This document shows positions 284-28,934 of a DNA stretch of 64,000 nt, piece by piece. The notes beneath the pieces are model-generated. The model was given only the letters and a program-made list of their open reading frames with translations, was not told where the DNA came from and did no database searches. This DNA is from Lutibacter oceani. Lineage in GTDB: Bacteria; Bacteroidota; Bacteroidia; Flavobacteriales; Flavobacteriaceae. Numbering within the stretch: position 1 is the stretch's first letter; each line of letters opens with the position of its first letter. The translations under genes and the position numbers were made by a program. Location of the stretch: positions 620,001-684,000 of the forward strand of contig NZ_QTTQ01000010.1 in the NCBI RefSeq assembly GCF_003384935.1, written 5' to 3'.

Positions 284-2071
284 TTAATATCCATAATCAT
301 TAACTAACTTACCATTACTTCCATCAATAAACACTTGCCAAATTGGCCAAAACTGTCTATCATCAGGGTTAACTCCCGTTTTGTAAATTGAATTTATCAT
401 CTCATCAAATACAGGATTCCACGTAAAAGCAGAATATTCTACTCCAGGGTCTTGATTCTCACCTCTATTTAAACCATAAATATTTAAAGTTTCGTTGTCA
501 TCTTCATATTTATAATATAAAGTGCTTGGTACATCAGCATAATCTCCAGTACGATTTTGTAAATCTATCATTTTAGCTTTTGCTTCATCTAAATTTGCTT
601 TTAGCATATTCCAACGAATAAGTGATTGCTTACGCTCCATTTCTCCTGTGAATTCATATTTATGCTCTTTTACCAGTGCATTAAACATTGCTTCCTTACT
701 AGATAATGCATTTACATAAACATCTACTTTTTCAGCTTGAAATTCAGGGCTAAATGCTCTCATACGAATTTCTTTTAAGTAAGGTGCAGCAGCAGCTGGA
801 CCTTCTAATTCATTCGCAGCTTCAGCGGCAATAAAAAGAATTTCTGCATAACGCATAAATATTTTATTTACTCCATCATCATTTGTTGAAGTAACATATC
901 TATTCATCCATTCGTAACGATATTTTCCAAAATACCAAGTATCTAATCCAACTAATTCTTGTTGAGCAACACCATTAGCAGGGGTACCCCATCCATAAGG
1001 AACACAACTCACATCTCTACGACTATCAGCTTCATCAAAATCATAAAATACAGTAGGTAACGGACCTGCGATACCTCCTCTAGGCTGACCAGTATATTGG
1101 TCAACACCTCTGTGTCTCACTGCAAAAGAGAATAATACACGTCCACGACCTGCAGCAAAAGGAATTTCCCAAAGAGATTCACTACCTGCATTTGTATTTT
1201 CCTCATTATAATTTCTCCAGAATGTTTCAAATGAAGGCTCTAAATGAGCAGTTCCACTACTTATAATTGAACGACATTCATCAAGTGCAATTTTGTACAT
1301 TTTTTCAACTGAAAGTTCTGGGTCATTACTTCTTCTAATACCATCAGGATATTGCATATAACCACTGGCAACCATTGCTAAACGAGCTCTTAACCCTTTT
1401 ACAAAAGCTTTGTTTATTCTTTCAACTGATGTTGTAGCAGCAGTTTCATTAGGCCATGCTACTAATGTAGATGCTTCTTCTAAATCTTGAATAATTTGTT
1501 TATAAATTATATCACGACTTGATTTTTCTAAATAAATAGTTTCCGAATTAATAGGTTCAAAACGTGCAGGAACATCTCCCCAAGTTTTCATTAAATCAGT
1601 ATAATAAATTGCACGCAATGTTAAAGCCTCACCTAATAACTGCCCAAGTTCAGTTTCTGGCTGTGGATTTCCAAAACTACGTAATCCTCTAATACAAATA
1701 TTTGCACGCTCTATACCTGAATACATCATAGCCCAAGCATTATTTGTACTATTCATTTGTGAATTATTAGGTTTAGCATCATAAATCATAAGTTCACCTT
1801 GAGAACTACCTGCATCATCTGAGCTATAATTCCATTCTGTATCCGTATTAAATCCATAAAAAGGAATAAATCGTCCTCTATATGAATTTGTTTGTCCCAT
1901 CGGTTCTAATATTCCGTCTACTGCTCCTCTAGCTAATCCAGCATTCGAAAAAATGATAGATTCATCTAGTGTTGATTTCGCTGGTGCATCTAAGAAATCT
2001 TCATTCATTTCCTGACACGAACTAAAAAGTCCAGCTATTATTATTGCAAAAATTAATATAAAATTTTTCAT
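284..2071 (-). CDS. susD: SusD/RagB family outer-membrane glycan-binding lipoprotein
   Basis: This is a 595-residue RagB/SusD family protein. It has a lipoprotein signal peptide with the lipobox Cys at about residue 19 (GLFSSC), then the family's helical TPR-like body and the usual C-terminal sequence rich in aromatic residues (RQFWPIWQ). SusD proteins cap the SusC transporter and capture oligosaccharides at the cell surface. It lies 19 bp after susC and downstream of the GH28 polygalacturonase gene, so the likely ligand is a galacturonate-containing oligosaccharide. Specificity cannot be read from the sequence. Expression should follow the LacI-controlled promoter ahead of the GH28 gene, since no other clear promoter is seen between the genes. 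Confidence 0.95.
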   Translation of the reverse strand: MKNFILIFAIIIAGLFSSCQEMNEDFLDAPAKSTLDESIIFSNAGLARGAVDGILEPMGQTNSYRGRFIPFYGFNTDTEWNYSSDDAGSSQGELMIYDAKPNNSQMNSTNNAWAMMYSGIERANICIRGLRSFGNPQPETELGQLLGEALTLRAIYYTDLMKTWGDVPARFEPINSETIYLEKSSRDIIYKQIIQDLEEASTLVAWPNETAATTSVERINKAFVKGLRARLAMVASGYMQYPDGIRRSNDPELSVEKMYKIALDECRSIISSGTAHLEPSFETFWRNYNEENTNAGSESLWEIPFAAGRGRVLFSFAVRHRGVDQYTGQPRGGIAGPLPTVFYDFDEADSRRDVSCVPYGWGTPANGVAQQELVGLDTWYFGKYRYEWMNRYVTSTNDDGVNKIFMRYAEILFIAAEAANELEGPAAAAPYLKEIRMRAFSPEFQAEKVDVYVNALSSKEAMFNALVKEHKYEFTGEMERKQSLIRWNMLKANLDEAKAKMIDLQNRTGDYADVPSTLYYKYEDDNETLNIYGLNRGENQDPGVEYSAFTWNPVFDEMINSIYKTGVNPDDRQFWPIWQVFIDGSNGKLVNDYGY

Positions 2072-2090
2072 CTTTAAATAAATGTTTTAA

Positions 2091-5000
2091 TTAAAAATTA
2101 AGGTTTAACCCAAAAACTATTGATCTACTACGTGGAAAAGGAGAATAATCTACTCCTGGTGTAAGAGGAGTCTTTCTTCTTGTTGACACCTCAGGATCAA
2201 GACCTGTATAGTTTGTAATAATGAAAACATTATTAGCTGTAGCATAAAATCTCAGTTTAGAAACACCAATTTTTGAAACTATTGATTCTGGTGCTGTATA
2301 CCCTAATGTAATTGTGTTTAATCTTAAAAAAGAACCATCTTCAACTGCCCAGTCGCTAAAAACAAAACGAGACATATATGGCGACCACATTGTAGTATTA
2401 GCATTAAGTGCTGTTAATTGTGCTGGATCTGTAACTAATTGACCAGAAGCTGGATCTAAATTTGTCCATCTACTTCCATCAGCCATAATTGTACTTAAAT
2501 TTCTGTATTGTCCGTTTTGATTAGATGTAGTAAATTCAATTTTATTTGCATTGTACACATCATTTCCTACACTCCAGTTAAAAGCTGCAGAAAGATCAAA
2601 ACCATAAGCATTCGCATTAATAACAAAACCACCTGTATGTGTTGGATTAGAATCTCCAATAATAGTATTATCATCTACAGTTACTAAACCATCACCATCT
2701 ATATCTTTTAATTTCATAGAACCAGGCATAACAGCACCTATAACTGCTGCATTATCAACAACTCCAGATTTCAATGTATAAGTTCCTGTTCCTGAATCAA
2801 AATCAAAGTCTGATACTTCGTAACGCCCATCACTTTCATATCCATACATTAAACCTATAGGTTGACCAACATTTATAACATAATCATTTCCTATTTGAGT
2901 TGAAGCCCAATTCGTATTTTGACCAAAATCATCCATAACTCCAAGTGAGTTTATACGATTTTTGTTAAATCCAATGTTAAAAGAAAAATTTAAACCATAA
3001 TCTTCTTTTTCAATTGCTCTTACATTTAAAGAAGCTTCAATACCTGTATTTTGAGTTTCCCCCATATTTCTATACTGACTTACATAACCTGTTCCCGGTG
3101 TAGGAAAATTGATTAATAAGTCTTGAGTAACATTTTTATAAGCTTCTAATGAACCGCTTATACGACGATCTAATAAATCAAAATCAATACCCAAGTTTTG
3201 AGTAATGGTTGTTTCCCATTTTAAATCTGGATTAGCTAAAGTATTAGAGGCTGCCCAATAATTAGAAACTCCATTTATATATGTTGTAGTTTTTGACTCA
3301 AAATTTTGAACTGTTTGTCCAGATGGGATATTATTATTTCCAGCCTGTCCGTAACTTAACCTAAGTTTCAATGAATTAACCCAAGAAACATCTTTTAAAA
3401 AATCTTCTTCTTTCATCTTCCAAGCTAAAGCCGCTGATGGAAAATATCCCCAACGATTGTCACCTAAAAATTTACTTGAACCATCCGCACGGTATGTTGC
3501 AGTTAAAAGATAACGATCTTTATAACTATAATTTACACGACCAAAAAACGATAATAATTTATCATCTGGACTGTAATAGTTATCAACTGATATTGGTACA
3601 CCTTGGCTTGTTAAATTTCTAGAAGTATCAAAGTCAAAAAACTTCGGAAAACCTTGAATTTCGGTAGTAACATCATTGGTTTTAGAAACTATCATTTCCT
3701 CACCTAAAAGAACTTTTAAGCTATGTTTTTCATCCAATATTTTATTAAAATCAAAATTAAATGTATTAGCATTTCTAAATCGCTCTCTTTTTTCATCACT
3801 AAATAACAAAGAAGGTAATCCTTGATTTTCAGCAGCTGGTCTATTACTTGCATAATATGTAGAGCGTCCATAAAAACGGTAATCTAAATTACTATAATTA
3901 TCTAAACCTAAATCAGTTTTAAATTGAAGGTTTTCAATTATTTTCCAAGAAAAACTTCCAAGTACATTGTAATTTTTTCTGAGTTTTTTACGTTGATTAT
4001 CATCAACAGCAACAAAAGGATTAACTAAATAACTAGAAAGTGCTTCATCTGTATTTGTAGTTGTTAAACCTGGTAATGGAATTGGTGAATAACCAACACT
4101 ATGTCTAAGACGTGCATCTGCCGAAGAAACTTCATTTTGTTCATTCGCTCCACCTCCATTAATTTCTGTATCTGAGTAACGTATTGTAAATGATAAATCA
4201 ATTTTTTCGCTGGCTTTACTTTTTAAGGCTAAAGACAAGTTATCTCTTTTAAAATCTGAACCCAACATAATGGTTTTTGCATCATAACGTGCGTAGTTAA
4301 AATTGAAATTAATTTTTTCAGAACCACCACGAATTCCTAAATCATTACTCAACACTTCACCCATTTCTCCATAAATCTGTTTCTGCCAGTTATTTCCTAT
4401 CATACCTGCATATTGATCATAATCTTGCCATTGCCCAAAATATTTTTCATAAGAATCTAAATCATCTGGATTATCAAGTAATGCATATTCATATTGCCAT
4501 TTAACAAAATCTTCTGGCTCTTGCACATCAATAGTTTTTGCGATTTTACTTACTCCGTAGAAAGTGTTAAAATTTACTTGTATTTTACCATCTATACCAC
4601 TTTTAGTAGTTATAATAATTACACCATTTGCACCTCTTGAACCATAAATAGCTGTAGATGAAGCATCTTTTAAAACTGTAATATTTTCAATATCTGCAGG
4701 CGAAACATCGCTCATGCTGTTTACAGGAAATCCATCAACAATTATTAATGGAGAGCTATCTTGTGTTAAAGAACCTCCTCCTCGAATTCTAATTTTAATT
4801 TCTGCATCTGGAGAACCTTCTGAAGAAGTCACTTGTACCCCAGCCATACGACCTTGCAAAGCCTCTGCAACATTTGAAACAGATTGCTTTTTTAAATCAT
4901 CACCTCCAACAGAAACAACAGAACCTGTTAAATCCGACTTACGTGTTGATCCATAACCTATTACAACAATCTCGTCTAATGCTTCTAAATTTGCTTTTAG

Positions 5001-18931: not shown

Positions 18932-18960
18932 AAGCCTTACTAAAAATAGTAAGGCTTTTT
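18932..18960. terminator. Bidirectional terminator after the SDR gene
   Basis: An 11-bp stem (18932-18942 with 18947-18957) around an AAAA loop has an A-run before it and a T-run after it. It ends the SDR transcript. Before the element arrived it probably also ended the minus-strand tRNA-Arg transcript. Confidence 0.88.
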
Positions 18961-19003
18961 GTGATCGCGATAGGATTCGAACCTATGACCGTCTGCTTAG
19001 AAG
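18959..19003. repeat. Left attachment site: displaced 3' half of tRNA-Arg
   Basis: These 45 bp match 28890-28934 except at 18971 (T instead of C) and 18985 (A instead of G). The match stops at the anticodon loop. The two differences pair with one another in the T-stem, so each copy keeps a complete stem. This copy is presumably the original host 3' half. Confidence 0.9.
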
Positions 19004-19015
19004 TTATCCTACCGC

Positions 19016-19096
19016 ACTTCATTCTACTTCACTCTAATCGCTTTAACTACTGTTTTACAATTACTTACACTTTTCAACTTAATTTTACTTCACTTA
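19016..19096. promoter_or_regulatory. ACTTCA repeats next to the left end, candidate recombinase arm sites
   Basis: ACTTCATTCT (19016-19025) and ACTTCACTCT (19026-19035) lie in tandem, with a third copy ACTTCACTTA at 19087-19096. The third overlaps a CACTT/AAGTG dyad (19091-19104). They lie between the attachment core and the recombinase gene, where arm-type binding sites are expected. Confidence 0.4.
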
Positions 19097-19119
19097 TAAA
19101 AGTGTTTATTTACTAAAAT

Positions 19120-19139
19120 ATTATGCAAATATTATGCAA
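19120..19139. repeat. Left copy of a 20-bp terminal direct repeat
   Basis: ATTATGCAAATATTATGCAA is itself a tandem of ATTATGCAA. The identical 20-mer, in the same orientation, is at 28824-28843 inside the right end. It is probably a binding site for the recombinase or an excision factor. Confidence 0.65.
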
Positions 19140-19170
19140 ATGATTACATTTAACTTTTCAAACTAATGCT

Positions 19171-20433
19171 ATGGATTTTAGAATTTCACTATATCTTGAC
19201 AAAAGAAAGTCAAAGAAGAATACTCCTAACCTATTCCCTGTTAAATTACAGCTCTATTCTGTAATCACCAAGAAGCAAAAATTTTTTGGTACAGGTATAG
19301 ACTTATCTAAGGATGATTTTGAAGATATATTCAATTCAGATAAAAGTGTACGAGGTAAAAAAAATGAAATAAAAGTATTCCTTCAGAACATTCTAAGTAG
19401 AGCTAACAAAGTTGCTATGGACTTATCCCCTTTTTCATTTGAATCCTTTGAAAAAAAGATGTTCAGAAGAAAAGGTGCTAGTATTAATATTCAATATCAC
19501 TATAACAACAAGATAGATGTACTAACTAAAAACGATCAAATTTCTACTGCTAGTAACTATCGCTTAAGTCTTAAGTCCTTGAACAATTTTTTAATTGCTA
19601 AATCTAAGGGTAACATTAAAAATTTAACATTTTACGATATTACAACTGACTGGTTAAATAAATATGAAAGTTATATGATTAAAGACGTTGATAAAAGCAG
19701 AACTACTGTTTCAATGTACCTAAGAGCATTAAGAACTATTTTCAATGATGCCATCAATGAAAATGAAATTAAACGTGAAACCTATCCTTTTGGCAAAGGA
19801 AAAGGCAAATATCAAATTCCAACATCAACAGGAACTAAGAAGGCTCTTTCAAGAGAACAGTTGAAAATTTTATTTAACGCTAATACAATCACTCCTGAAG
19901 AAGAAAGGGCTAAAGATTTCTGGTTTTTTAGTTACGCCTGTAGTGGTATGAATATTAAAGATATTGCACTTTTGAAGTATAAAAACATTGATGATGGAAA
20001 TATCAGATATTACAGAGCCAAAACTATCAATACAAAAAAAGGAAATCTAAAAGAAATTAATGTTCCGCTGAATGATTATGCAAGAGGAGTTATACTTAAA
20101 TATGGTAATGAACATAAAAACCCTGATCAAGTTATATTTCCTATATTATTAAATGAAGACGATGCTTTGAAACAACGGCGCAAGGTTAAAAACTTTACCA
20201 GTCTTATAAACCTTCACTTTAATAAAGTTGCAAAAAGAGAAGGATTTGAATTTAAAATAAGTTCGTACTGGGCCCGCCACTCCTTTGCAACTGTCTCTAT
20301 ACAAAAAGGTGCTTCAATGGAATTTATAAGCGAAGCTCTAAACCATAGTAGCCTTAGTGTTACAAAAAACTATTTTGCTGGATTTGAAGACAAGGATAAG
20401 AAAGAATTTGCTGATAAACTGATGGACTTTTAA
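19171..20433 (+). CDS. int: Tyrosine recombinase / integrase of the Bacteroidetes type
   Basis: This 420-residue protein has an N-terminal arm-binding domain (about 1-60), a SAM-like core-binding domain (about 100-215) and a C-terminal catalytic domain. Visible catalytic-region elements are SSYWARHSFAT at about residues 364-374, LNHSS near 390 and the nucleophile Tyr near 401 in KNYFAGF. The first conserved Arg (box I) is not where expected: the segment reads CSGMNIKDIA, with Asn in the position usually held by Arg. CTnDOT integrase is a known example of a family member lacking this Arg. It lies 167 bp inside the left attachment site and should catalyse integration into and excision from the tRNA-Arg gene. 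Confidence 0.95.
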   Translation: MDFRISLYLDKRKSKKNTPNLFPVKLQLYSVITKKQKFFGTGIDLSKDDFEDIFNSDKSVRGKKNEIKVFLQNILSRANKVAMDLSPFSFESFEKKMFRRKGASINIQYHYNNKIDVLTKNDQISTASNYRLSLKSLNNFLIAKSKGNIKNLTFYDITTDWLNKYESYMIKDVDKSRTTVSMYLRALRTIFNDAINENEIKRETYPFGKGKGKYQIPTSTGTKKALSREQLKILFNANTITPEEERAKDFWFFSYACSGMNIKDIALLKYKNIDDGNIRYYRAKTINTKKGNLKEINVPLNDYARGVILKYGNEHKNPDQVIFPILLNEDDALKQRRKVKNFTSLINLHFNKVAKREGFEFKISSYWARHSFATVSIQKGASMEFISEALNHSSLSVTKNYFAGFEDKDKKEFADKLMDF

Positions 20434-20448
20434 AAAAATAACGCTGCT

Positions 20449-21411
20449 ATGTATAATTTCACGGATCTAATTGCTAAATCATATATTGAGTACACAATAA
20501 GAAGAAACGATAATATTGCACATTTTTTCTATTATAATTTTCTAAGATTTACCTATTCAAGAAATTCAAAACCTATTTTTGGACAAAATGAATTTTTTAA
20601 ATTATTAATCAATGAAATTAATAGTTTAATCAATATAACATATTCCAGTAATCAATACATTGAGAAGTTTGAGGATAAATATTTTGAAACAATAAGGTTA
20701 GAAAAAGATTTTGAATCTTATGAACGATCCAAACAGAAAGAAGATCAATTGATAGCGGATGATTTAGGTTTTATAGGTGAAGTTAAACGTAATAACTGGG
20801 AAAAGTGTACAAATGCAAAGGAATTAATTAAGGCGTTAGAAAATGGGTTAATCTTAAGCGATCCTATAACATTTATTTCAGAGATTAAAGAAATACAATC
20901 TGGAGATCTTGTTCTAAGAAAATCAAAGCTAGAATATTTAAAATCTGAAGCTGAAAGAGCTAGCGATGCAGAAAGTATTGAAGATCTTGACACTAATGTT
21001 TCCTCTACGACTATCTTAATAAAATCTAACAGTGATACAGAAACCTTTATTAAGGTTAATGAGGCTTTTAGATTCACACTAACTGACGATCCTTGGCAGA
21101 AGAAGCAAATATTATCTCATCAAGATTATAACAGCCTTGTTATTTGGGTAACTGAATACTTTGAAAAAAGTTTTACGATACCTGAAATTAAGGAACCTAT
21201 TAAGAAATTATACACAGCTAAGGGAAATATTGTCCAAGCGTTTAAAGATTTATTTGCCGAATTACACCCAAGTTTATCTAAATCCAAACCTGAAAGCTAT
21301 TTTAAGTTAATAAGTTCGTGTTTTGTTCTATTTAGTGATAAGACACGCAAACAAATTGACGGGGCAAAACCCTCTAAAGATTATGATTATATAGTAAAGA
21401 AAATTCCTTAA
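20449..21411 (+). CDS. Unknown protein of the integrated element
   Basis: I do not recognise this 320-residue protein. It is charged and predicted soluble, with no signal peptide and no obvious enzyme motif. A central Lys/Glu-rich segment (about residues 85-200) looks helical. It begins 15 bp after the recombinase stop and on the same strand, so it is likely co-transcribed. Its position between recombinase and HTH gene suggests a role in the element's transfer or control rather than cargo, but this is inference from position only. Confidence 0.75.
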   Translation: MYNFTDLIAKSYIEYTIRRNDNIAHFFYYNFLRFTYSRNSKPIFGQNEFFKLLINEINSLINITYSSNQYIEKFEDKYFETIRLEKDFESYERSKQKEDQLIADDLGFIGEVKRNNWEKCTNAKELIKALENGLILSDPITFISEIKEIQSGDLVLRKSKLEYLKSEAERASDAESIEDLDTNVSSTTILIKSNSDTETFIKVNEAFRFTLTDDPWQKKQILSHQDYNSLVIWVTEYFEKSFTIPEIKEPIKKLYTAKGNIVQAFKDLFAELHPSLSKSKPESYFKLISSCFVLFSDKTRKQIDGAKPSKDYDYIVKKIP

Positions 21412-21423
21412 AACAATAATTCC

Positions 21424-21456
21424 CGTAAACTCGTATTTTATTCTCGTAAACTCGTA
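21424..21456. promoter_or_regulatory. Paired 12-bp direct repeats upstream of the HTH gene
   Basis: CGTAAACTCGTA occurs at 21424-21435 and again at 21445-21456, exactly 21 bp apart (two helical turns), so both copies lie on one face of the DNA. They lie 35-67 bp upstream of a promoter -7 box and are probably a regulator's binding site. Confidence 0.55.
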
Positions 21457-21490
21457 ACATAATTCGTTATATATCAGTAAGTTACTTATG

Positions 21491-21526
21491 TAATTTTGCC
21501 GTGTCAACGCAATTAAGCGTCTGACA
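21491..21526 (+). promoter_or_regulatory. Promoter -7 box and 5' leader hairpin of the HTH-DUF3987 operon
   Basis: TAATTTTG (21491-21498) fits the TAnnTTTG box, although no clean -33 TTTG is seen. Immediately after it, TGTCAACGC / GCGTCTGACA (21502-21526) forms a 9-bp stem with one bulge around AATTAA. The hairpin would lie at the very 5' end of the mRNA, about 17 nt before the ATG at 21544, or could be a DNA operator. Confidence 0.5.
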
Positions 21527-21543
21527 TAAAAATATAATCAATT

Positions 21544-21879
21544 ATGTTAAAATTAACAATCGACTCACTGCCTGAAGCAGTGCAAGAGTTAAATGCAAAG
21601 ATGGACATTATTACTATGTTGCTCCAATCTGCGAAACCTACTGAAAAGAAAAACGATCTTCTTAACATTCAAGAAGCAGCAACTTTTTTAAACTTATCTA
21701 AAGCTACTTTGTACAACAAGGTTAGCAAAAGAGAACTACCTGTTATGAAACAAGGCAAAAGACTTTATTTCTCTAGAGAAGAACTTACTAGCTACATTAA
21801 GTCGGGGAAGGTTCTTTCAGACCGAGAGATTGAAGATCAAGCCAACAATTATTTATCTAACTATAAAAAAATTGCATAA
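21544..21879 (+). CDS. Helix-turn-helix protein, excisionase-like (MerR/HTH_17 type)
   Basis: This 111-residue protein has a winged HTH at about residues 40-85: LLNIQEAATFLNLSKATLYN, then a wing with QGKRLYFSREELTSYI. This is the layout of excisionase/HTH_17 proteins. The N-terminal 35 residues look like a short helical extension. Small proteins of this kind stand directly before DUF3987 genes in Bacteroidetes mobile elements and act in excision or regulation. Its stop overlaps the next start by one base (TAATG), so the two are translationally coupled. Confidence 0.85.
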   Translation: MLKLTIDSLPEAVQELNAKMDIITMLLQSAKPTEKKNDLLNIQEAATFLNLSKATLYNKVSKRELPVMKQGKRLYFSREELTSYIKSGKVLSDREIEDQANNYLSNYKKIA

Positions 21880-23252
21880 TGGATAATTCGACAAATAAAA
21901 ATCAAGGTAATGAAGATAAATTACCTACTTTTCCAGACACCTTATATCCTCAACTTCCTCAATTTCTGCAAGACGCTGTTTCACACGCAACTTCAAATCA
22001 GGAAAGAGATATGCTTTTATTAGGCGCAATTACAAGTATCAGTTCGTGCATCCCAAAAGTTTATGGTATTTATGATAAGGATAAAGTCTATTCAAATTTG
22101 TATTTATTTGTAACAGCTCCTGCTTCCTCAGGAAAAGGGAAATTAAATAAGTCAAGGTTGATCATAAATAAAATACATAAATCTTTAAGAGCTGAAATGG
22201 AATCTCTAAATGAGGATTACAAAAAAGATCTTGCATATTATAATAAGAACAAGAAAAATAATAGTGACTTAGTTAGACCAAAAAAACCAACAGAAAAAAT
22301 GTTGTTTATTCCCGCTAATAATAGTAGTACAGGGATGTTTCAATTACTCAATGATAATGATGAAAAGGGTATTATTTTCGAAACAGAAGGAGATACCTTA
22401 ACACAAGCATTTAAGTCAGATTATGGAGATTATAGTGATGGATTTAGAAAAGCATTTCATCACGAACCAATAACATATTTCAGAAGAACTGATCGGGAGT
22501 ATGTTGAGATTGAAAAACCAAAATTATCTGTAGTATTATCCGGAACACCTGGGCAGGTTATTTCTTTAATACCAAGAGCTGAAGATGGCCTATTTAGTAG
22601 GTTTATGTTTTATTATCTTGTTATGAAATCTGAATGGATTAACCCATATGATAAAAGTGATACTGAGGATCTTGATTTAAAATACAAGAAATTAGGGGAT
22701 AACTTCTTTGAGTTTTATAAATTGCTTAATGATAGCGATGAAATCAAAATTAGTATTAGTGATGTTCAAGGTGAGAAATCATTTGAATACTTCTCTAAAT
22801 TACAAGCAAAGTATGAAAATATCGATTCAGATGGATTTATTGCTAATGTAAGACGATTGGGACTTATTTCTTTTAGGCTTATAATGATTCTAACAACACT
22901 TAGAATAATGGAAGATGGTAGTGATGTACCTAATGAAAGAGAATGTTCAGATATTGATTATGATAGCGTTCTTAAAATGATCCCAATTCTTACACATCAT
23001 AGTCGTAAAGTATTTTTTACTTTGAATAAAGTAGAGAAACCAGCTGGTCATAAAAGTTCGAAGGAAGAGTTTATTGAAGCATTACCGAAAACATTTTCTC
23101 GGAAAGATTATATTAGTATCGCAAAAAACAAAGGGATTAAAGATAAAACAGCCGAAGGTTATATATCAAAATTAGTGAAGGACGGCATCTTATATAAAAA
23201 GTCGCACAATAATTATATAAATACTTTATTTCCAGAAGATGGGGAATCTTAG
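21879..23252 (+). CDS. DUF3987 primase/helicase-like protein
   Basis: This 457-residue protein matches the DUF3987 family: PTFPDTLYPQLPQFLQDAV at the N-terminus, a P-loop-like segment FVTAPASSGKGKL at about residues 83-95, then GIIFETEGDTLTQAF and VVLSGTPGQV typical of the ATPase core. A winged-helix-like C-terminus (RKDYISIAKNKGIKDKTAEGYI) follows. Members are found in integrative elements and are thought to act in replication or transfer; the exact activity is unproven. A 17-bp stretch of its coding DNA (21943-21959) is repeated exactly in the non-coding region at 27168-27184. A 9-bp repeat array starts on its stop codon. Confidence 0.88.
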   Translation: MDNSTNKNQGNEDKLPTFPDTLYPQLPQFLQDAVSHATSNQERDMLLLGAITSISSCIPKVYGIYDKDKVYSNLYLFVTAPASSGKGKLNKSRLIINKIHKSLRAEMESLNEDYKKDLAYYNKNKKNNSDLVRPKKPTEKMLFIPANNSSTGMFQLLNDNDEKGIIFETEGDTLTQAFKSDYGDYSDGFRKAFHHEPITYFRRTDREYVEIEKPKLSVVLSGTPGQVISLIPRAEDGLFSRFMFYYLVMKSEWINPYDKSDTEDLDLKYKKLGDNFFEFYKLLNDSDEIKISISDVQGEKSFEYFSKLQAKYENIDSDGFIANVRRLGLISFRLIMILTTLRIMEDGSDVPNERECSDIDYDSVLKMIPILTHHSRKVFFTLNKVEKPAGHKSSKEEFIEALPKTFSRKDYISIAKNKGIKDKTAEGYISKLVKDGILYKKSHNNYINTLFPEDGES

Positions 23253-23312
23253 GAAGTTGAGGAAATAAAGGAAATATCCTTAAAACCCTCAGAATCCTGT
23301 AATTCCTAAGTA
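23250..23312. repeat. 9-bp phased repeat array 1 (three forward, four inverted units)
   Basis: Seven 9-bp units run without a gap. TAGGAAGTT, GAGGAAATA and AAGGAAATA are followed by TCCTTAAAA, CCCTCAGAA, TCCTGTAAT and TCCTAAGTA. The AGGA cores at 23251, 23260 and 23269 mirror the TCCT cores at 23277, 23286 (CCCT), 23295 and 23304. The block is an imperfect palindrome, with CTTAGGAA (23248) and TTCCTAAG (23303) near its edges. It shares AGGAAGTTGAGGA with arrays at 27172-27207 (inverted) and 27477-27512. Confidence 0.8.
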
Positions 23313-23326
23313 GTCCAAATGGCAAT

Positions 23327-23398
23327 AAAAAAACCCACTTCTTTAGAGAGGTGGGTAAATTGCTATGAAAAAGATCGACAAACTAATAGTCTGTCTTC
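23327..23398 (-). ncRNA. Candidate minus-strand small RNA with intrinsic terminator
   Basis: On the minus strand, a TATATTTG box (23412-23405) is followed by about 70 bp. These contain a 7-bp hairpin around TATTA (23395-23377, one G-U pair) and then a strong terminator: CCCAC/GTGGG stem at 23355-23334 and seven T at 23333-23327. The first hairpin pairs better as minus-strand RNA (G-U) than as plus-strand RNA (A-C mismatch). On the plus strand the terminator hairpin has no T-run. No minus-strand gene is near, so the terminator implies a short stand-alone transcript. No clean -33 box is visible and the RNA's expression is unproven. Confidence 0.45.
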
Positions 23399-23468
23399 CA
23401 GTAACAAATATAATATAAATCACTATAAATTCCTATGATAATTTATTAATTTAGCATAAATAAAATCA

Positions 23469-24059
23469 ATGAAAAATAAATTCAAAATTACCGGCCTTTT
23501 CTACGAATTACAAGGCTATAAATTCCGAAAGTACTTAGATATTAAAAAAGTAAAAAAAAGCCCTAAAACACCTGATTTAATGGTAGTAATGATGAACCCT
23601 GGTAGCTCCAGAAGTATTGACGGAATAGATAATAATACCATAGCTTCTGAAGCTATACCTGACAGAACTCAGAGCCAGATAATGGAGGTGATGTTGAATG
23701 CTGGATATGAATATTGCAGAGTTTTAAACCTATCAGATATCCGTGAGCCAAAGAGTAATTTGTTTTATAAGAAAATGGCAGAGTTAGAGGCTAAAGGTAT
23801 TGCACACTCTATATTTGATGATAGCAGAAAAGAAGATTTTAACAGCTTATGGATACCTAATATCCCTGTAATCTATGGCTGGGGAGTAAATGATCATTTA
23901 AAGCCTTTAGCTGTAAAAGCTATAGCGGCGTGTAATGCTTCAAACACCTACGGTATTTTAAAGCCTAATACTAATTGGGCTTATTACCATCCACTACCTC
24001 CAATATATATAAAGCAAAAAGAATGGGTTGAAGTTGTCTCGAAGCAATTAATACTTTGA
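23469..24059 (+). CDS. DUF1643-like protein
   Basis: This 196-residue protein resembles the DUF1643 family. It has VVMMNPGSSRSIDGIDNNTI near residues 38-57 (the family's MNPS-type segment), then RVLNLSDIREPKSNLFY and PVIYGWGVNDHLKPLA with the conserved GWG. Proteins of this family are often carried on phages and mobile elements; their function is not known to me with certainty. It has no signal peptide or membrane segment. It stands alone on the plus strand between the candidate small RNA and the methyltransferase gene, with 189 bp of non-coding DNA after it. Confidence 0.65.
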   Translation: MKNKFKITGLFYELQGYKFRKYLDIKKVKKSPKTPDLMVVMMNPGSSRSIDGIDNNTIASEAIPDRTQSQIMEVMLNAGYEYCRVLNLSDIREPKSNLFYKKMAELEAKGIAHSIFDDSRKEDFNSLWIPNIPVIYGWGVNDHLKPLAVKAIAACNASNTYGILKPNTNWAYYHPLPPIYIKQKEWVEVVSKQLIL

Positions 24060-24248
24060 TTAGCCCATTAGTAATTTTAATCGGCTTAATATTAGTTCTA
24101 CATCAATAAGTAGCTTTACTTTTCAATTAGTTTATCAATTAAATAATTTTTTTATGTAAAAAATCTAAATCTTGAATTGTAACCAAAAAAGAAAATTAAA
24201 ATGACTAAATTAGCCGCTTAAGTTTTACATTTTTATATTACAAAGATT

Positions 24249-25853
24249 TTGATAAAAGAAAAATTAATTAGTCCCAATAAGTTACCATTTTTACAATCAC
24301 AGATTCTACAAATTATATATATAGACATTAGTCTGAACCAAAAAACATCGTTAGAAAATATTTACAAGGTTACGGATTATAAACCAAACAGTAAGATCTT
24401 AAATGATGCGATCAAAGCGTTAAATACTAAAAAATTTCTAATTGGTGATTTAGATAAAGGTTATGCTATTCCTGAAGAAAGATTAGGGTTATTCAATTCT
24501 ATTATTAAAAAGAATGATTATGTTCACAAGATTTATTCGGAGAATATTCTTTCATTAGAATATTCGAATCGAAGAAGGAAAAACAAATTACATAATAAAA
24601 CTACACTTTTTAACAACGATAATCATAGTAATAGTACAATTAGTCAGTATAATAATGGCGGTATATGTCATAGATGGTATAATTATCTAGAAGATTTCCC
24701 ATACTATTTAATTGAAGAAAAAATTAAAGAATATGGATTAAATGAATCTTCCCTCATAGTAGAACCATTTGCAGGAAGTGGAACGACAAATGTTTCATCT
24801 AAAATGTTTAATATTAGGTCTTATGGTTTTGATGCTAACCCATTAATGGCATTTATTTCTGAGGTAAAAACAAATTGGGATATTGATTTAACAACATTTA
24901 AAAAAGAAGTTTTAAGAATCTCAAAAAAATTTTTAAAGGATATTCATCATTTTGACACTTTAAATATTGACAAAGATTTTCTTGATAAAATGCCAAAAAA
25001 GGAACTCAATCAATGGTTAAGCTTAGGTTTACAAAAAGAGGTAGTTTTATTGAAAAATCACATCAAAACAATAAAAAATAAAGGAATTAGAAAACTGTTA
25101 TTGTTATCGATGTCACGTTCAGCTCTTGATGCTTCATTTGTGGCCTTTTGTCCAGGCACGACTTTTTATCCTTTTAGAGATAAAGATGAATTTTGGGATA
25201 TTTTTACTGATAAAGTTGTAGAAGTATACAATGATTTAATAAAACTTCAGCAATTAAATATAGATTTTAAAGATGTTCAAATAATTAATGACTCTTGTCT
25301 TAATGCATCCAAATATATAGAGCAAAAGTCAATTGATTTTTTAGTTACTTCACCACCATACCCAAATGATCTCGAATATACTCGCCAAACTCGGTTGGAA
25401 TTATATCTTTTAGATTTTGTCGAGAATATGGACGATGTTCAACAGATTAAAAGAAAAATGGTAAAAGGGAGTACTAAATTGATTTATAAAGAAAGTAATT
25501 CTGCTGAACATATAAAGAAATTTAAAAGTGTTATGGAAATTTCTGATTTAATTTATGAGCAAACAAAAGATAAAAATTGGGGATTTGATTACCCTAGAAT
25601 GGTTAGAGAGTATTTTGGTGATATGTATTTATGCTTAAAAGAGTTTCTTCCTTTAATGAAAGAAGATGGACACTTTTTATTGGTTGTTGGTGATCAAACA
25701 ATTAAGGGAGTATATATTCCTGTATGTGATATTTTGATTGAAATGGCTAATAAGCTTGGTTATTCTGAAGGAAAAAAAGAACTTTTTAGAATAAGAAGAA
25801 GTACTGGTCATAACGTTGATCTACCAGAAGAAATAGTAATATTAAAAAAATAA
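24249..25853 (+). CDS. DNA methyltransferase (N4/N6 type) of a restriction-modification pair
   Basis: This 534-residue SAM-dependent DNA methyltransferase has motif I, VEPFAGSGTTN, at about residues 171-181, GFDANPL as the next acidic motif, and the catalytic motif IV TSPPYPN at about 367-373. The 190-residue gap between motifs I and IV may hold the target-recognition part. TSPPY suggests N4-cytosine or N6-adenine methylation. The N-terminal 150 residues look helical and wing-like, perhaps DNA-binding. The only suitable start is a TTG at 24249, as the first in-frame ATG is about residue 190, inside the core. It ends two bases before the endonuclease-like gene, which marks a tight operon. Confidence 0.9.
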   Translation: MIKEKLISPNKLPFLQSQILQIIYIDISLNQKTSLENIYKVTDYKPNSKILNDAIKALNTKKFLIGDLDKGYAIPEERLGLFNSIIKKNDYVHKIYSENILSLEYSNRRRKNKLHNKTTLFNNDNHSNSTISQYNNGGICHRWYNYLEDFPYYLIEEKIKEYGLNESSLIVEPFAGSGTTNVSSKMFNIRSYGFDANPLMAFISEVKTNWDIDLTTFKKEVLRISKKFLKDIHHFDTLNIDKDFLDKMPKKELNQWLSLGLQKEVVLLKNHIKTIKNKGIRKLLLLSMSRSALDASFVAFCPGTTFYPFRDKDEFWDIFTDKVVEVYNDLIKLQQLNIDFKDVQIINDSCLNASKYIEQKSIDFLVTSPPYPNDLEYTRQTRLELYLLDFVENMDDVQQIKRKMVKGSTKLIYKESNSAEHIKKFKSVMEISDLIYEQTKDKNWGFDYPRMVREYFGDMYLCLKEFLPLMKEDGHFLLVVGDQTIKGVYIPVCDILIEMANKLGYSEGKKELFRIRRSTGHNVDLPEEIVILKK

Positions 25854-25855
25854 TT

Positions 25856-26674
25856 ATGAGAAATCCAAATGAAATTTTCACTTATCCACTCGACAATGAT
25901 AGTGATAATGCACAGGAAGCAGTTAACTACTACAATTGTCGGTTCACTGGAAAAATATGTGACAAGCAAAGTAGAATGATAAACTACCCGATGGGTGTTT
26001 GCTCTGTAAATCATAGTGGGAAAAAACCGATAATTTGCCCGAATAGATTCCTAGAGGATAATATTGTCTTTACTAACATTTGTATTAGTGCATTTGGTAG
26101 CACCGACAATGTTCTTTTGTTTAAAGAAGTTAGACTAAAAGATGTTGGGACTTTTGACTTTGTTTTAGTAAAGCATAAACCTATTAGTAGTGAAGTTGAA
26201 GATTTTTGTATAGTAGAGTTTCAGTCAGATTCTACTACGGGAACTGGTAAACTGGTTAATGCTTTGAAAGATTTTATGAATGGAGATGACTTAAAGAATA
26301 AAAATTATAGTTTTGGTATGAATACATATAATACTATAAAATTATCTTATATTCAAATGTTAATTAAAGGGCAAGTTATGGAATCTTGGGATAAAAAAAT
26401 ATTTTGGGTTATGCAAGATTTTGTATTTGACAATATGGTAGATAGATTTAATTTAGCTGATTTAGATTATACCGAAGAAGACAATACTAAATATCATATT
26501 TATGATTTAGAACTAAAGGATAATTTATATAATCTAAAGTTAATTAGAAAAAAATCAACAACAATATCAAACCTTATAAAAGCATTTACGCATCAACCTA
26601 CACCAAGTATTGATAGTTTTATTAATAAATTAGAAGAGAAAATAGAATTAAAATTAGGTTTATCCTTTAAGTAA
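25856..26674 (+). CDS. NotI-like type II restriction endonuclease
   Basis: This 272-residue protein resembles the NotI endonuclease family. The N-terminus carries four spaced cysteines: C28 in YYNC, C35 in GKIC, C49 in GVCS and C61 in IICPNRF. This is the pattern expected for NotI's Cys4 iron site. The nuclease core follows, with E91, D101 (GTFDFVLV) and E121-x-Q123 in VEFQSDSTTGTG, matching the PD-(D/E)xQ variant of that family. It lies two bases after a DNA methyltransferase gene, the expected partner. The recognition site cannot be read from the sequence. I am fairly sure of the family, less so that it is active. Confidence 0.72.
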   Translation: MRNPNEIFTYPLDNDSDNAQEAVNYYNCRFTGKICDKQSRMINYPMGVCSVNHSGKKPIICPNRFLEDNIVFTNICISAFGSTDNVLLFKEVRLKDVGTFDFVLVKHKPISSEVEDFCIVEFQSDSTTGTGKLVNALKDFMNGDDLKNKNYSFGMNTYNTIKLSYIQMLIKGQVMESWDKKIFWVMQDFVFDNMVDRFNLADLDYTEEDNTKYHIYDLELKDNLYNLKLIRKKSTTISNLIKAFTHQPTPSIDSFINKLEEKIELKLGLSFK

Positions 26675-27171
26675 TTGAATAAAAAATGATACAACTCTTG
26701 GCTAGATGTATATAACTGACAAACATTCGTTGGGTAATATGGAGTTCCTCAGTCGATCCACTTAATTTCGTAAAGCATAATTAAAAATTCTCCTACGTCT
26801 AATTTGTACTTAACATTCGTTCTACTACAATTTGTGCTCCAGCTGGTGCTCATTGTAGCTCTCTCATTTGCTTTTCTTCATACGCTACTCTATTCGGAGA
26901 CACATAGCTTACTTTACTCTTAAGATCTTCTAAGGATATGCTACGCAAGACCTTTTATTAAGAGGAAACCGCTATTTCATACTGACCGAGCCCGCTTTTT
27001 CCCTCAACCTATTTGGTGATCACAGTTTTTGATAGCATCCATTTTGCATAGAATTTAACCACTTCTTTCATTCGTTATTAAAACCTATTGCAAACGCACA
27101 CAAGAGCAGCGCACTCATTCAGCTATTTCAGCCAACTCTAAAGTAGTTTTAACATCAACAGTTATTCTATA

Positions 27172-27207
27172 TCCTCAACTTCCTTAGTTTCCTCAAAATC
27201 CTCACCC
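27172..27207. repeat. 9-bp phased repeat array 2 (four TCCT units)
   Basis: TCCTCAACT, TCCTTAGTT, TCCTCAAAA and TCCTCACCC run head to tail in exact 9-bp phase. The 17 bp at 27168-27184 are identical to 21943-21959 in the DUF3987 gene. The 16 bp at 27171-27186 are the exact inverse of 27485-27500 in array 3. Confidence 0.8.
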
Positions 27208-27476
27208 TCATTAAACTAAGATAACTGTAAGATGTACACCTACACTCCATCCTTCAATAGCTTCCTTCAATTACAGCACTTGTCTTTCCAGCCGCTTCAA
27301 AAACAGCGCCACCAGCGTGTACCACGTAGTTAGAAAAAATATTTATTCGGAACTCAACATATTATTCTTTTCTAACAGTTTCGGTCAGCTCGTGCTGGGC
27401 TCGGCTCTGCTTCGCAATTACCCTCTTTTAAATAAGGAGCATTGGTATTCATTTGTTAAGAGTAAATTATACTACT

Positions 27477-27512
27477 GAGGATATTAAGGAAGTTGAGGAT
27501 TCTGAGGATATT
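27477..27512. repeat. 9-bp phased repeat array 3 (four AGGA units)
   Basis: GAGGATATT, AAGGAAGTT, GAGGATTCT and GAGGATATT run in exact 9-bp phase, in inverse orientation to array 2, so the two arrays face each other across about 270 bp. The first and last units are identical. Confidence 0.8.
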
Positions 27513-27824
27513 AGTTGATAGCAATTACCTTCTGTAGTAATTATTCATACTAGATAAACATTCTAACATTTAATTGTTGACAGAAATAAAAAGTCGGCAA
27601 AATTAAGTTATTACCATCTCCAGCCGCCTCATTTTGTAAAAGGTCAAGCCCTGCGGGTTTTGGAGAAAATCTCCACCTTAATACAAAATGCTTCCAAAAC
27701 AACTTTATAAATCAGGTAGTATTTTCTCCAATAACCTTGTACAAAAGCCACATAACAAGCATAGCCTTTTTTCTATTTCGATTCAAAATTAAAAATGAAC
27801 CATTAACATTTAAAAGTAAATAGT

Positions 27825-28229
27825 ATGCTAAACTACACGATCAAATCCTACAAGAAAGGTAGCACCTACAATCAACCACATTACTTCATTCAAAATAAAG
27901 GTTTGAATAGTGGTAGAGCTCTTCATAACCCGATACCTAATTGCTTCGTTGTAACTACAGAGACAAATGAACAGCGAGAAATACTATACTATTTATGTCA
28001 ATCATTACAGGTAGGAGAGTGTTTTAAATATTACATCATTGGGAGCGTTATTCCTTTCATTCGCATAGATGATGTAAGAAAAGTCCTTAATACAGCTCTA
28101 CAGAATTATGAAAAAGATAATTGGGAGCTAAAAGTTAGAAAGTTAATGAAAATAATCAACTATGAAGATAATCTAAAGCAACAACTTAAAACGATAGGAC
28201 AGTTAAAAATTGCATTACTTCGAACCTGA
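27825..28229 (+). CDS. DUF6943 family protein
   Basis: This small 134-residue soluble protein has HYFIQNKGLNSGRALHNPIPNCFVV (about residues 20-44) and VGECFKYYIIGSVIPFIRIDDV, which I recognise as DUF6943, a family common on Bacteroidetes mobile elements. Its function is unknown. It has no signal peptide or membrane segment. It is the last credible gene before the right end of the element and lies next to the non-coding region with arrays 2 and 3. Confidence 0.7.
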   Translation: MLNYTIKSYKKGSTYNQPHYFIQNKGLNSGRALHNPIPNCFVVTTETNEQREILYYLCQSLQVGECFKYYIIGSVIPFIRIDDVRKVLNTALQNYEKDNWELKVRKLMKIINYEDNLKQQLKTIGQLKIALLRT

Positions 28230-28776
28230 TAGTAACAGGTTATTTACACATACTAAAAAGTACCCGCCACCTATTTATGCCACCCCCTTTTGATTATTAG
28301 TTTTTTATTATATGATATTCGAGGGGTAGTGCACTTCTGTGAGGCTATTTTCACCCCATATACCGATGTTATATCTGTTCCTCCTTATTATTGTAGTTCT
28401 TACTCCTAAGCTTTAATAGATACCTTAAAAAGAAGCTATAAGAGCCCCATAATTCAACAGCCTTACCTATAAAATAATCTCTTAATTTACATCTACAGGT
28501 TGCTTTTATATCTATACTACTAAATTTCAACAGGGAGTATATGAGCGATCCACATAAAGCCACACTCTCCCTGTAGCCCCCCGGTCGAACGACTATGGAA
28601 AAAGGAATTATATACAACTTCGAAGGTAGGTCGATTATATGCAGTTAAGTCCAAACGGGTGTAGGGGTAGCATTCATATAAAATACTTTTACACTTGTTT
28701 AAGAAATTAGACTTCTAGTGATTGATAATAACACGTCAACTATTGATTGAGTCTTAAGATTAGTTGTTTATGGAGT

Positions 28777-28806
28777 TTTAAACAAAGGTGGGTAGGGTTG
28801 TTTAAA
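28777..28806. repeat. 9-bp inverted repeat with G-rich loop near the right end
   Basis: TTTAAACAA (28777-28785) and TTGTTTAAA (28798-28806) are exact inverse copies around AGGTGGGTAGGG. The form is that of a hairpin usable by a relaxase, recombinase or regulator. Confidence 0.5.
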
Positions 28807-28823
28807 CTTCTTAACAAAGATTT

Positions 28824-28843
28824 ATTATGCAAATATTATGCAA
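28824..28843. repeat. Right copy of the 20-bp terminal direct repeat
   Basis: This is identical and co-oriented to 19120-19139. It lies 46 bp inside the right attachment site, against 116 bp for the left copy. Confidence 0.65.
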
Positions 28844-28844
28844 C

Positions 28845-28882
28845 TTAAAAACAAGAAAGGCTTCACATTTCTGTAAAGCCTT
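28845..28882 (-). terminator. Terminator of the tRNA operon supplied by the element
   Basis: On the minus strand an AAGGCTT/AAGCCTT stem, extended by ACA/TGT (28857-28882), is followed by a T-rich run. It lies directly downstream of the tRNA-Arg 3' end and inside the element, and replaces the host terminator at 18932-18960 that integration moved away. Confidence 0.65.
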
Positions 28883-28889
28883 GATTCTC

Positions 28890-28934
28890 TTGTGATCGCG
28901 ACAGGATTCGAACCTGTGACCGTCTGCTTAGAAG
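28890..28934. repeat. Right attachment site within tRNA-Arg
   Basis: This is the partner of 18959-19003. It supplies the 3' half of the working tRNA-Arg gene from the element, with C at 28902 and G at 28916 forming a C-G pair in the T-stem where the displaced copy has T-A. Confidence 0.9.

Follow-up and report, generated by a model that had tools for sequence, protein, structure and literature searches.

A 9.9-kb island integrated in the genome of Lutibacter oceani carries four arrays of short units that are built on AGGA or its inverse TCCT and follow each other in steps of 9 bp. We propose, with a probability of roughly 0.7, that these arrays are iterons of the island's own DUF3987 protein, which is predicted to be an MCM-like AAA+ helicase-initiator with a C-terminal winged helix and which would bind them to start replication of the island. 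The island lies in a stretch of 64,000 nucleotides of contig NZ_QTTQ01000010.1 (positions 620,001 to 684,000, assembly GCF_003384935.1). We call this whole stretch the window and give coordinates within it. An earlier note on this DNA had suggested an iteron-like region for replication, excision or transfer. We retain the iteron-like character and favour replication, because the arrays accompany a replicase gene and the repeat word tracks the C-terminal winged helix of the replicase. Nothing was found that points to excision or transfer.

Arrays of 9-bp repeats in the window

The arrays and the gene to which they belong are as follows (ORF, open reading frame).

21879..23252, plus strand: gene of the DUF3987 protein, 457 aa (PF13148, E 3e-55)
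21943..21971, minus strand: array 0, two inverted units with TCCT at 21947 and 21956 (span 21947-21966), inside the DUF3987 ORF just before the helicase domain
23250..23312, plus strand: array 1, three forward units (AGGA at 23251, 23260 and 23269) starting on the TAG stop codon 23250-23252, then four inverted units (23277, 23286, 23295 and 23304), that at 23286 being imperfect (CCCT)
27168..27207, minus strand: array 2, four inverted units with a 9-bp step (TCCT at 27172, 27181, 27190 and 27199)
27477..27513, plus strand: array 3, four forward units with a 9-bp step (AGGA at 27478, 27487, 27496 and 27505), facing array 2

Arrays 1-3 had been described in the earlier note and sit where it placed them, including the start of array 1 on the DUF3987 stop codon; array 0 had been overlooked. 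Arrays 2 and 3 are separated by 265 bp. The 13-mer AGGAAGTTGAGGA, already noticed in arrays 1 and 3, is present in array 0 too. It has four matches in the 3.38-Mb genome, one per array and all within the element, and the same pattern read backwards, used as a control, has one. The 16 bp of array 2 that had been reported as the exact inverse of array 3 are also there, inside a 25-nt pair that is 92% complementary.

The arrays are beyond chance, as had been supposed. Step 9 accounts for all three runs of at least three AGGA or TCCT units in the window, the other steps from 5 to 15 having none, and no such run arose in 500 shuffles of the element that preserved its dinucleotides. We built a unit matrix from gene-end units of other genomes only (109 distinct ones) and scanned the window and 23 related islands with it. 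Over 15.5 kb of the window, the five chains listed correspond to arrays 3, 2, 1 and 0 and to the inverted half of array 1. We propose array 1 as the core origin.

Arrays at the ends of related DUF3987 genes

Single-sequence scans of the genome and viral contigs for relatives returned nothing, whereas a scan with an alignment (A1) did find them; for one A1 scan the best 80 of 452 matches were kept. DUF3987 relatives are present in 55 of 397 genomes of the family and in 7 of 38 genomes of the genus, the window's own gene being counted in both.

The 58 relative loci that were taken around such genes contain 19 AGGA/TCCT runs of at least three units at step 9 and none at steps 4-8 and 10-17; two runs at step 18 are a harmonic of step 9. 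Eighteen of the 19 fall within -83 to +48 of the DUF3987 stop codon, the exception (L062) being at +1205. Commonly, the stop codon is covered by a forward AGGA array, which is followed a few to about 20 bp downstream by an inverted TCCT array. In the cleanest relatives the last codons consist of four AGGA units, and four TCCT units come after the stop. We collected 75 distinct gene ends with TAEGY or TAQGY in the last 80 residues: 66 have at least two forward units, 58 have at least two inverted units, 57 have both and 8 have neither. The strict 9-bp step asserted in the earlier note describes the runs in the window, but the steps in relatives measure 9 bp in 234 cases, 8 bp in 57 and 10 bp in one.

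Because 9 bp make three codons, the gene tails such as EESQDSKETKDE, found in relatives with an array over the last codons, look like by-products of the DNA arrays. The reverse, that the repeats are by-products of repetitive peptides, would account for the overlap of arrays with the last codons and with the linker (FAKFAKFAN) in relatives. However, the arrays extend beyond the stop codon, where their orientation flips, and their word is found in non-coding DNA as well, so that this explanation has very little probability. The gene-end array could also be a transcription terminator hairpin or some other RNA structure, given that forward and inverted units can pair and that the inner units are perfect inverses in some relatives (e.g. 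L157). Against this, the printed arrays are not followed by a run of T, and each arm consists of head-to-tail 9-bp repeats whose word recurs in other coding and non-coding DNA. Moreover, the Rfam scan returned only tRNA above the gathering threshold, with no family at the arrays or in the non-coding block around arrays 2 and 3. Judged by these sequence features and the Rfam scan, a structured RNA is highly improbable.

A wider set of 176 loci was composed of the window, the 58 loci, 89 more and 28 of another 30, from which L280 (the window's own gene) and L291 (no frame by our rule) were left aside. L185 was dropped as cut off, which gave 175 loci, and duplicate genes from two collections were collapsed by clustering. 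We then looked for at least three identical 4-mers at a fixed step between -60 and +140 of the stop codon in 57 representatives (70% identity). Step 9 was found at 21 of the 57 gene ends against 45 of 2764 control windows of the same loci (binomial p 3.4e-23), while the other steps from 5 to 16 were found at 0-3 of the 57, the three being at step 8. Step 9 is the commonest in the control windows as well (45, the next being 31 at step 12), and therefore the comparison allows for codon phase.

These positions bear on a different function of the arrays. Iteron plasmids are subject to handcuffing, i.e., the pairing of arrays. DUF3987 might bind its arrays chiefly to keep its own operon repressed or, through such pairing, to restrict copy number, and replication would then start elsewhere. 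One array inside the gene and others far away would suit this function, as would arrays 2 and 3 at their distance of 265 bp with no AT-rich centre. However, the most constant array is located at the 3' end of the gene, which is the site of crr in P4 and of origins in phage-inducible chromosomal islands (PICIs) and is not a promoter, and only 1 of 54 gene starts has a step-9 array. We consider repression or handcuffing as the main function unlikely.

In distant DUF3987 genes, words other than AGGA occupy the same place with the same step: TTTGCA, GATG, GGCA, GGCGGAA, TGTCCGG, CACTTTG, GACAATA and GGAAAC. Nine DUF3987 records come from phages or plasmids. Six of these (L299, L301, L302, L303, L304 and L306) have gene-end repeats of 8 or 9 bp, L305 has repeats only further down, and L298 and L300 have none. 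The records labelled as plasmids prove nothing about autonomous replication, as their gene content looks chromosomal.

About 100 bp past the gene-end arrays, many relatives (e.g. L157, L163 and L042) have a conserved word of the TTAGACAAA type and then TTGACAAGTC, which may serve the next operon as promoter or operator.

Co-variation of the repeat word with the winged helix

Two further features are needed here.

23052..23222, plus strand: codons of the C-terminal winged helix of DUF3987 (residues 392-448), the part of the protein with which the repeat word co-varies
21544..21879, plus strand: gene of an HTH_17 (AlpA/excisionase-like) protein (PF12728, E 2.5e-13; excisionase-type PHROGs)

Co-variation was assessed in 37 of 66 representatives (85% identity), namely those with at least three step-9 4-mers. 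Word similarity correlates with the identity of the C-terminal domain at 0.54 and with that of the ATPase at 0.40. In partial Mantel tests, the correlation with the C-terminal domain is 0.397 when the ATPase is held constant (p 0.001, 999 permutations), and that with the ATPase is -0.013 when the C-terminal domain is held constant. The repeat word follows the winged helix at the C-terminus rather than the ATPase.

The earlier note had advised a search of related DUF3987 elements, and AGGA/TCCT arrays do occur there at the same place, depending on the type of the winged helix. Chains of at least three units on either strand are present at 62 of the 75 distinct gene ends with TAEGY/TAQGY versus 2 of 58 others, and the two exceptions have TADGY (L105) and TAQRY (L279). 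For chains of at least two units the counts are 67 of 75 versus 6 of 58.

The HTH_17 protein is another candidate reader of the arrays, for excision or regulation. It has excisionase-type relatives, and of 145 loci 123 have its gene in the 2.5 kb upstream of DUF3987. The other 22 loci have no recognisable HTH_17 gene within that distance, which for at least L065 and its duplicate L125 is due to the end of the contig, and they include the array-bearing L082, L083, L171, L179 and L184. In addition, the co-variation test, applied to DUF3987, shows the word following that protein's winged helix once the ATPase is corrected for, and the arrays are far from the att sites. It is quite improbable that the arrays are HTH_17 sites, and the protein is unlikely to be their general reader.

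The DUF3987 protein

The match of the protein to PF13148 scores 188.2 bits against a gathering score of 27. We predict an MCM-like ATPase helicase with a C-terminal winged helix. AlphaFold2 was run on an alignment of 33 sequences (A3) and gave a model with a mean predicted local distance difference test score (pLDDT) of 84.8. The C-terminal unit of the model is arranged as helix-strand-helix-helix-strand-strand, and DKTAEGYISKLVK (residues 422-434) forms the third helix of the predicted winged helix. A Foldseek comparison with the PDB returned 73 matches at E up to 0.001. All 50 of the matches listed are MCM, CMG (Cdc45-MCM-GINS), OCCM (ORC-Cdc6-Cdt1-MCM) or replisome entries, with chains labelled as MCM subunits (E 2.4e-6 to 3.6e-4). 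Pfam models of the MCM winged helix match the protein below the cut-off.

According to the Pfam scan and the alignment, the window protein has no primase part. Among the relatives tested, primase parts (PriCT or BT4734-like) precede the DUF3987 domain in L051, L042 and L082 but not in L091.

Further sites in the linker and in a distal block

Array 0 has counterparts in related genes. A TCCT chain at -1345 to -1290 is found in 18 of 89 distinct AGGA-type regions (window included), inside the ORF before the helicase domain, and it falls within LPxFL codons where printed (window, L140 and L157). The analogous linker of the TTTGCA lineage codes FAKFAKFAN with TTTGCAAAG repeats, and the gene-end word is repeated in the linker of 6 of 36 distinct non-AGGA loci versus 2 of 72 control windows. 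Since the linkers of relatives repeat the gene-end word, array 0 is probably part of the system; the conserved peptide could contribute. AGGA pairs at -1238 in nine loci occupy a different coding spot and were not counted as array 0.

Arrays 2 and 3 belong to a separate region.

26675..27824, no strand: non-coding block of 1.15 kb holding arrays 2 and 3, with matches in 69 of 397 family genomes

The earlier note had also advised looking for arrays near the right end of related elements. Nine islands have the distal block, and seven of them (G211, G420, G066, G363, G309, G090 and G170) have a minus-strand chain in the slot of array 2. No other minus-strand chains of at least 14 outside the gene end are among those listed for the 23 islands. 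Plus-strand chains of at least 14 are also found in coding genes, and therefore the matrix scan has some false positives. Array 3 was seen elsewhere only in L208.

The block is conserved in pieces between 26680 and 27820, with counterparts at the distal end of related islands; conservation is strongest at about 27639-27677, and this piece often lies 20-30 kb from DUF3987 on the same contig. In the TTTGCA lineage, TTGCA repeats at step 9 are seen far from the gene in L097/L315 (about -7331 from the gene end), L310 (+18286) and L312 (+8223); these are possible distal sites, and some may be coding. In 17 of the 23 islands, AGGA chains of two units are present at +1293 to +6053; they were not counted as sites. 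The four that were translated (G211, G177, G104 and G096) lie in a long ORF, which in G211 is an Argonaute by PADLOC. A prokaryotic Argonaute is the gene after the proposed origin in related islands, e.g. L228:10688-12799 (PADLOC E 3e-287, G211 island only).

The island and its gene content

The island and its remaining annotated genes are listed below.

18959..28934, no strand: integrated island between direct 45-nt repeats of the tRNA-Arg 3' end (copies 18959-19003 and 28890-28934, 96% identical)
19171..20433, plus strand: tyrosine integrase of the island (PF00589, PF13102)
23469-24059: gene of a DUF1643 protein, beside the replicase

Further cargo comprises a type II methyltransferase with a NotI-like restriction enzyme and a DUF6943 protein, and a 320-aa ORF has no family match above the cut-off in the Pfam scan. 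The same scan found neither a relaxase, as required of an integrative mobilizable element, nor a separate Fis protein among the eight element proteins.

Several other sequence features were observed. Identical 21-bp direct repeats (TATTATGCAAATATTATGCAA) at 19119-19139 and 28823-28843, just inside both island ends, are probably arm-type integrase sites. An 18-nt inverted repeat (21455-21472 and 21532-21549, 89% complementary) just upstream of the HTH_17 gene is perhaps its operator. At 23327-23410 we see by eye two hairpins, the first of them variable, with the conserved words AAATTGCTATGAAAAAGAT or close variants between them. By eye, this arrangement also follows the DUF3987 gene in L095, L067 and L097, and it looks like an undescribed RNA or regulatory motif. 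DnaA boxes, searched by their consensus, have three one-mismatch matches in the element, none of them near the arrays.

Discussion

The reading of the arrays as iterons follows from a layout that matches those of P4, PICIs and SCCmec Cch2, and from the winged-helix origin recognition that has already been suggested for related primase-helicases. The alpha protein of P4 is a primase-helicase of the SF3 type. In P4 (X51522), crr iterons lie directly 3' of alpha in both orientations at a spacing of 9 bp (4314/4323), and ori, another iteron site that is required in cis, is kilobases off, about 4.7 kb from crr. The distal arrays of the window and of the related islands recall this two-site origin. 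P4 differs in its word (GGTGAACA) and in ori steps of 10-11 bp, and no array is shown inside alpha.

PICIs, including the Staphylococcus aureus pathogenicity islands (SaPIs), are described in the available part of PMC6092414 as having the origin immediately 3' of the rep gene, with two iteron sets flanking an AT-rich stretch. Array 1 and its counterparts in relatives share the location immediately 3' of the replicase gene, and the window has forward and inverted sets but no marked AT-rich centre. The Rep family is another one, and that part of the source mentions no distal site. In the staphylococcal cassette chromosome SCCmec, according to the accessible text of PMC7581432, Cch2 uses its C-terminal domain to bind iterons that lie just past its own gene, namely three copies of AAGTG in 23 bp. 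The same text describes Cch, a relative of Cch2 in other SCC elements, as MCM-like and DUF1643 as typical of SCC elements. In contrast, Cch2 is a D5-type helicase, and that text mentions neither an inverted array pair nor a distal site and gives no step.

DUF3987 figures as a putative helicase in work on PrimQH primases and on phage-inducible chromosomal minimalist islands (PICMIs). A winged helix was suggested for origin recognition in PrimQH, and PICMIs have integrase, AlpA and DUF3987 genes, need a Fis gene and sit at fis in Vibrionaceae (portions of PMC5862659 and PMC10803314). These portions mention no iterons or mapped DUF3987 origin. The window island has an integrase, an AlpA-like protein and DUF3987, but no separate Fis protein among the eight scanned, and its site is tRNA-Arg, unlike in PICMIs. 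By analogy, its replication may work like that of P4 or a PICI, without the island being classed as a member of either.

Several observations weigh against our reading. Neither array 1 nor the interval from array 2 to array 3 has a pronounced AT-rich centre. Of the 75 gene ends with TAEGY or TAQGY, eight lack a chain, although L095, L067 and L275 among them show degenerate chains by eye. The three-copy test is failed by 36 of 57 representatives at 70% identity, 29 of 66 at 85% identity carry fewer than three step-9 4-mers, and E. coli yfjI has no array. The Mantel permutation does not take out every effect of common descent. The Foldseek matches listed have low TM-scores by query (0.35-0.45) and superpose poorly overall, and a sequence search found no significant PDB relative. 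Two islands with the distal block, G280 and G033, have no listed chain in it. Finally, the island of a genus relative (L208) keeps arrays 2 and 3 beside an SF3/DUF5906 helicase instead of DUF3987, with 36/36 and 35/37 array positions retained and the non-coding block 93% identical. The SF3/DUF5906 gene is followed by three AGTGT at step 9, 87 bp past its stop (3735-3757). The AGGA-type arrays of L208 may be inherited passengers, or an AGGA-type DUF3987 encoded on a different contig of that genome may serve them in trans. Two more observations concern L208: within 774-3800, the region that also holds the AGTGT repeats, TTCACA-type 9-bp repeats stand at the end of a 290-aa ORF upstream, and DUF1643 is beside the replicase there too (197-aa ORF 3915-4508, by eye).

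If the arrays are indeed iterons of DUF3987, the following mechanism can be imagined. After excision, the winged helices of several subunits would dock on the AGGA units every 9 bp, and the forward and inverted arrays at the gene end would position two assemblies face to face. The facing assemblies would melt the DNA and load as helicases, and replication of the circular island would start. Array 0 and arrays 2 and 3 would be accessory sites for the same protein, probably acting by looping, for initiation or copy control, as P4 has ori and crr.

Our search of the open-access literature found no DUF3987 origin and no paper joining DUF3987 with an iteron. A broader proposal, to which we give about even odds, is that DUF3987 proteins are phylum-wide bacterial MCM-like replicative helicases that load themselves. 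Each would have its own origin of 9-bp iterons bracketing the helicase domain, in the linker and at the gene end, often with a distal site, and a readable code would relate the recognition helix to the iteron word. With arrays that face each other, two helicases would be loaded convergently, as a bacterial counterpart of the MCM double hexamer that does without a separate loader, and the 9-bp step would be a geometry common to P4 alpha and other replicases of the SF3/D5 type.

DUF3987, a widespread domain-of-unknown-function family, accompanies primases in islands, satellites and Bacteroidales loci. An origin predictable from sequence, with a word that changes together with the DNA-reading helix, would allow direct tests of DUF3987 function and would offer a way to mark integrated islands that may replicate. 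The natural protein-DNA pairs would also make a set for working out the recognition code.

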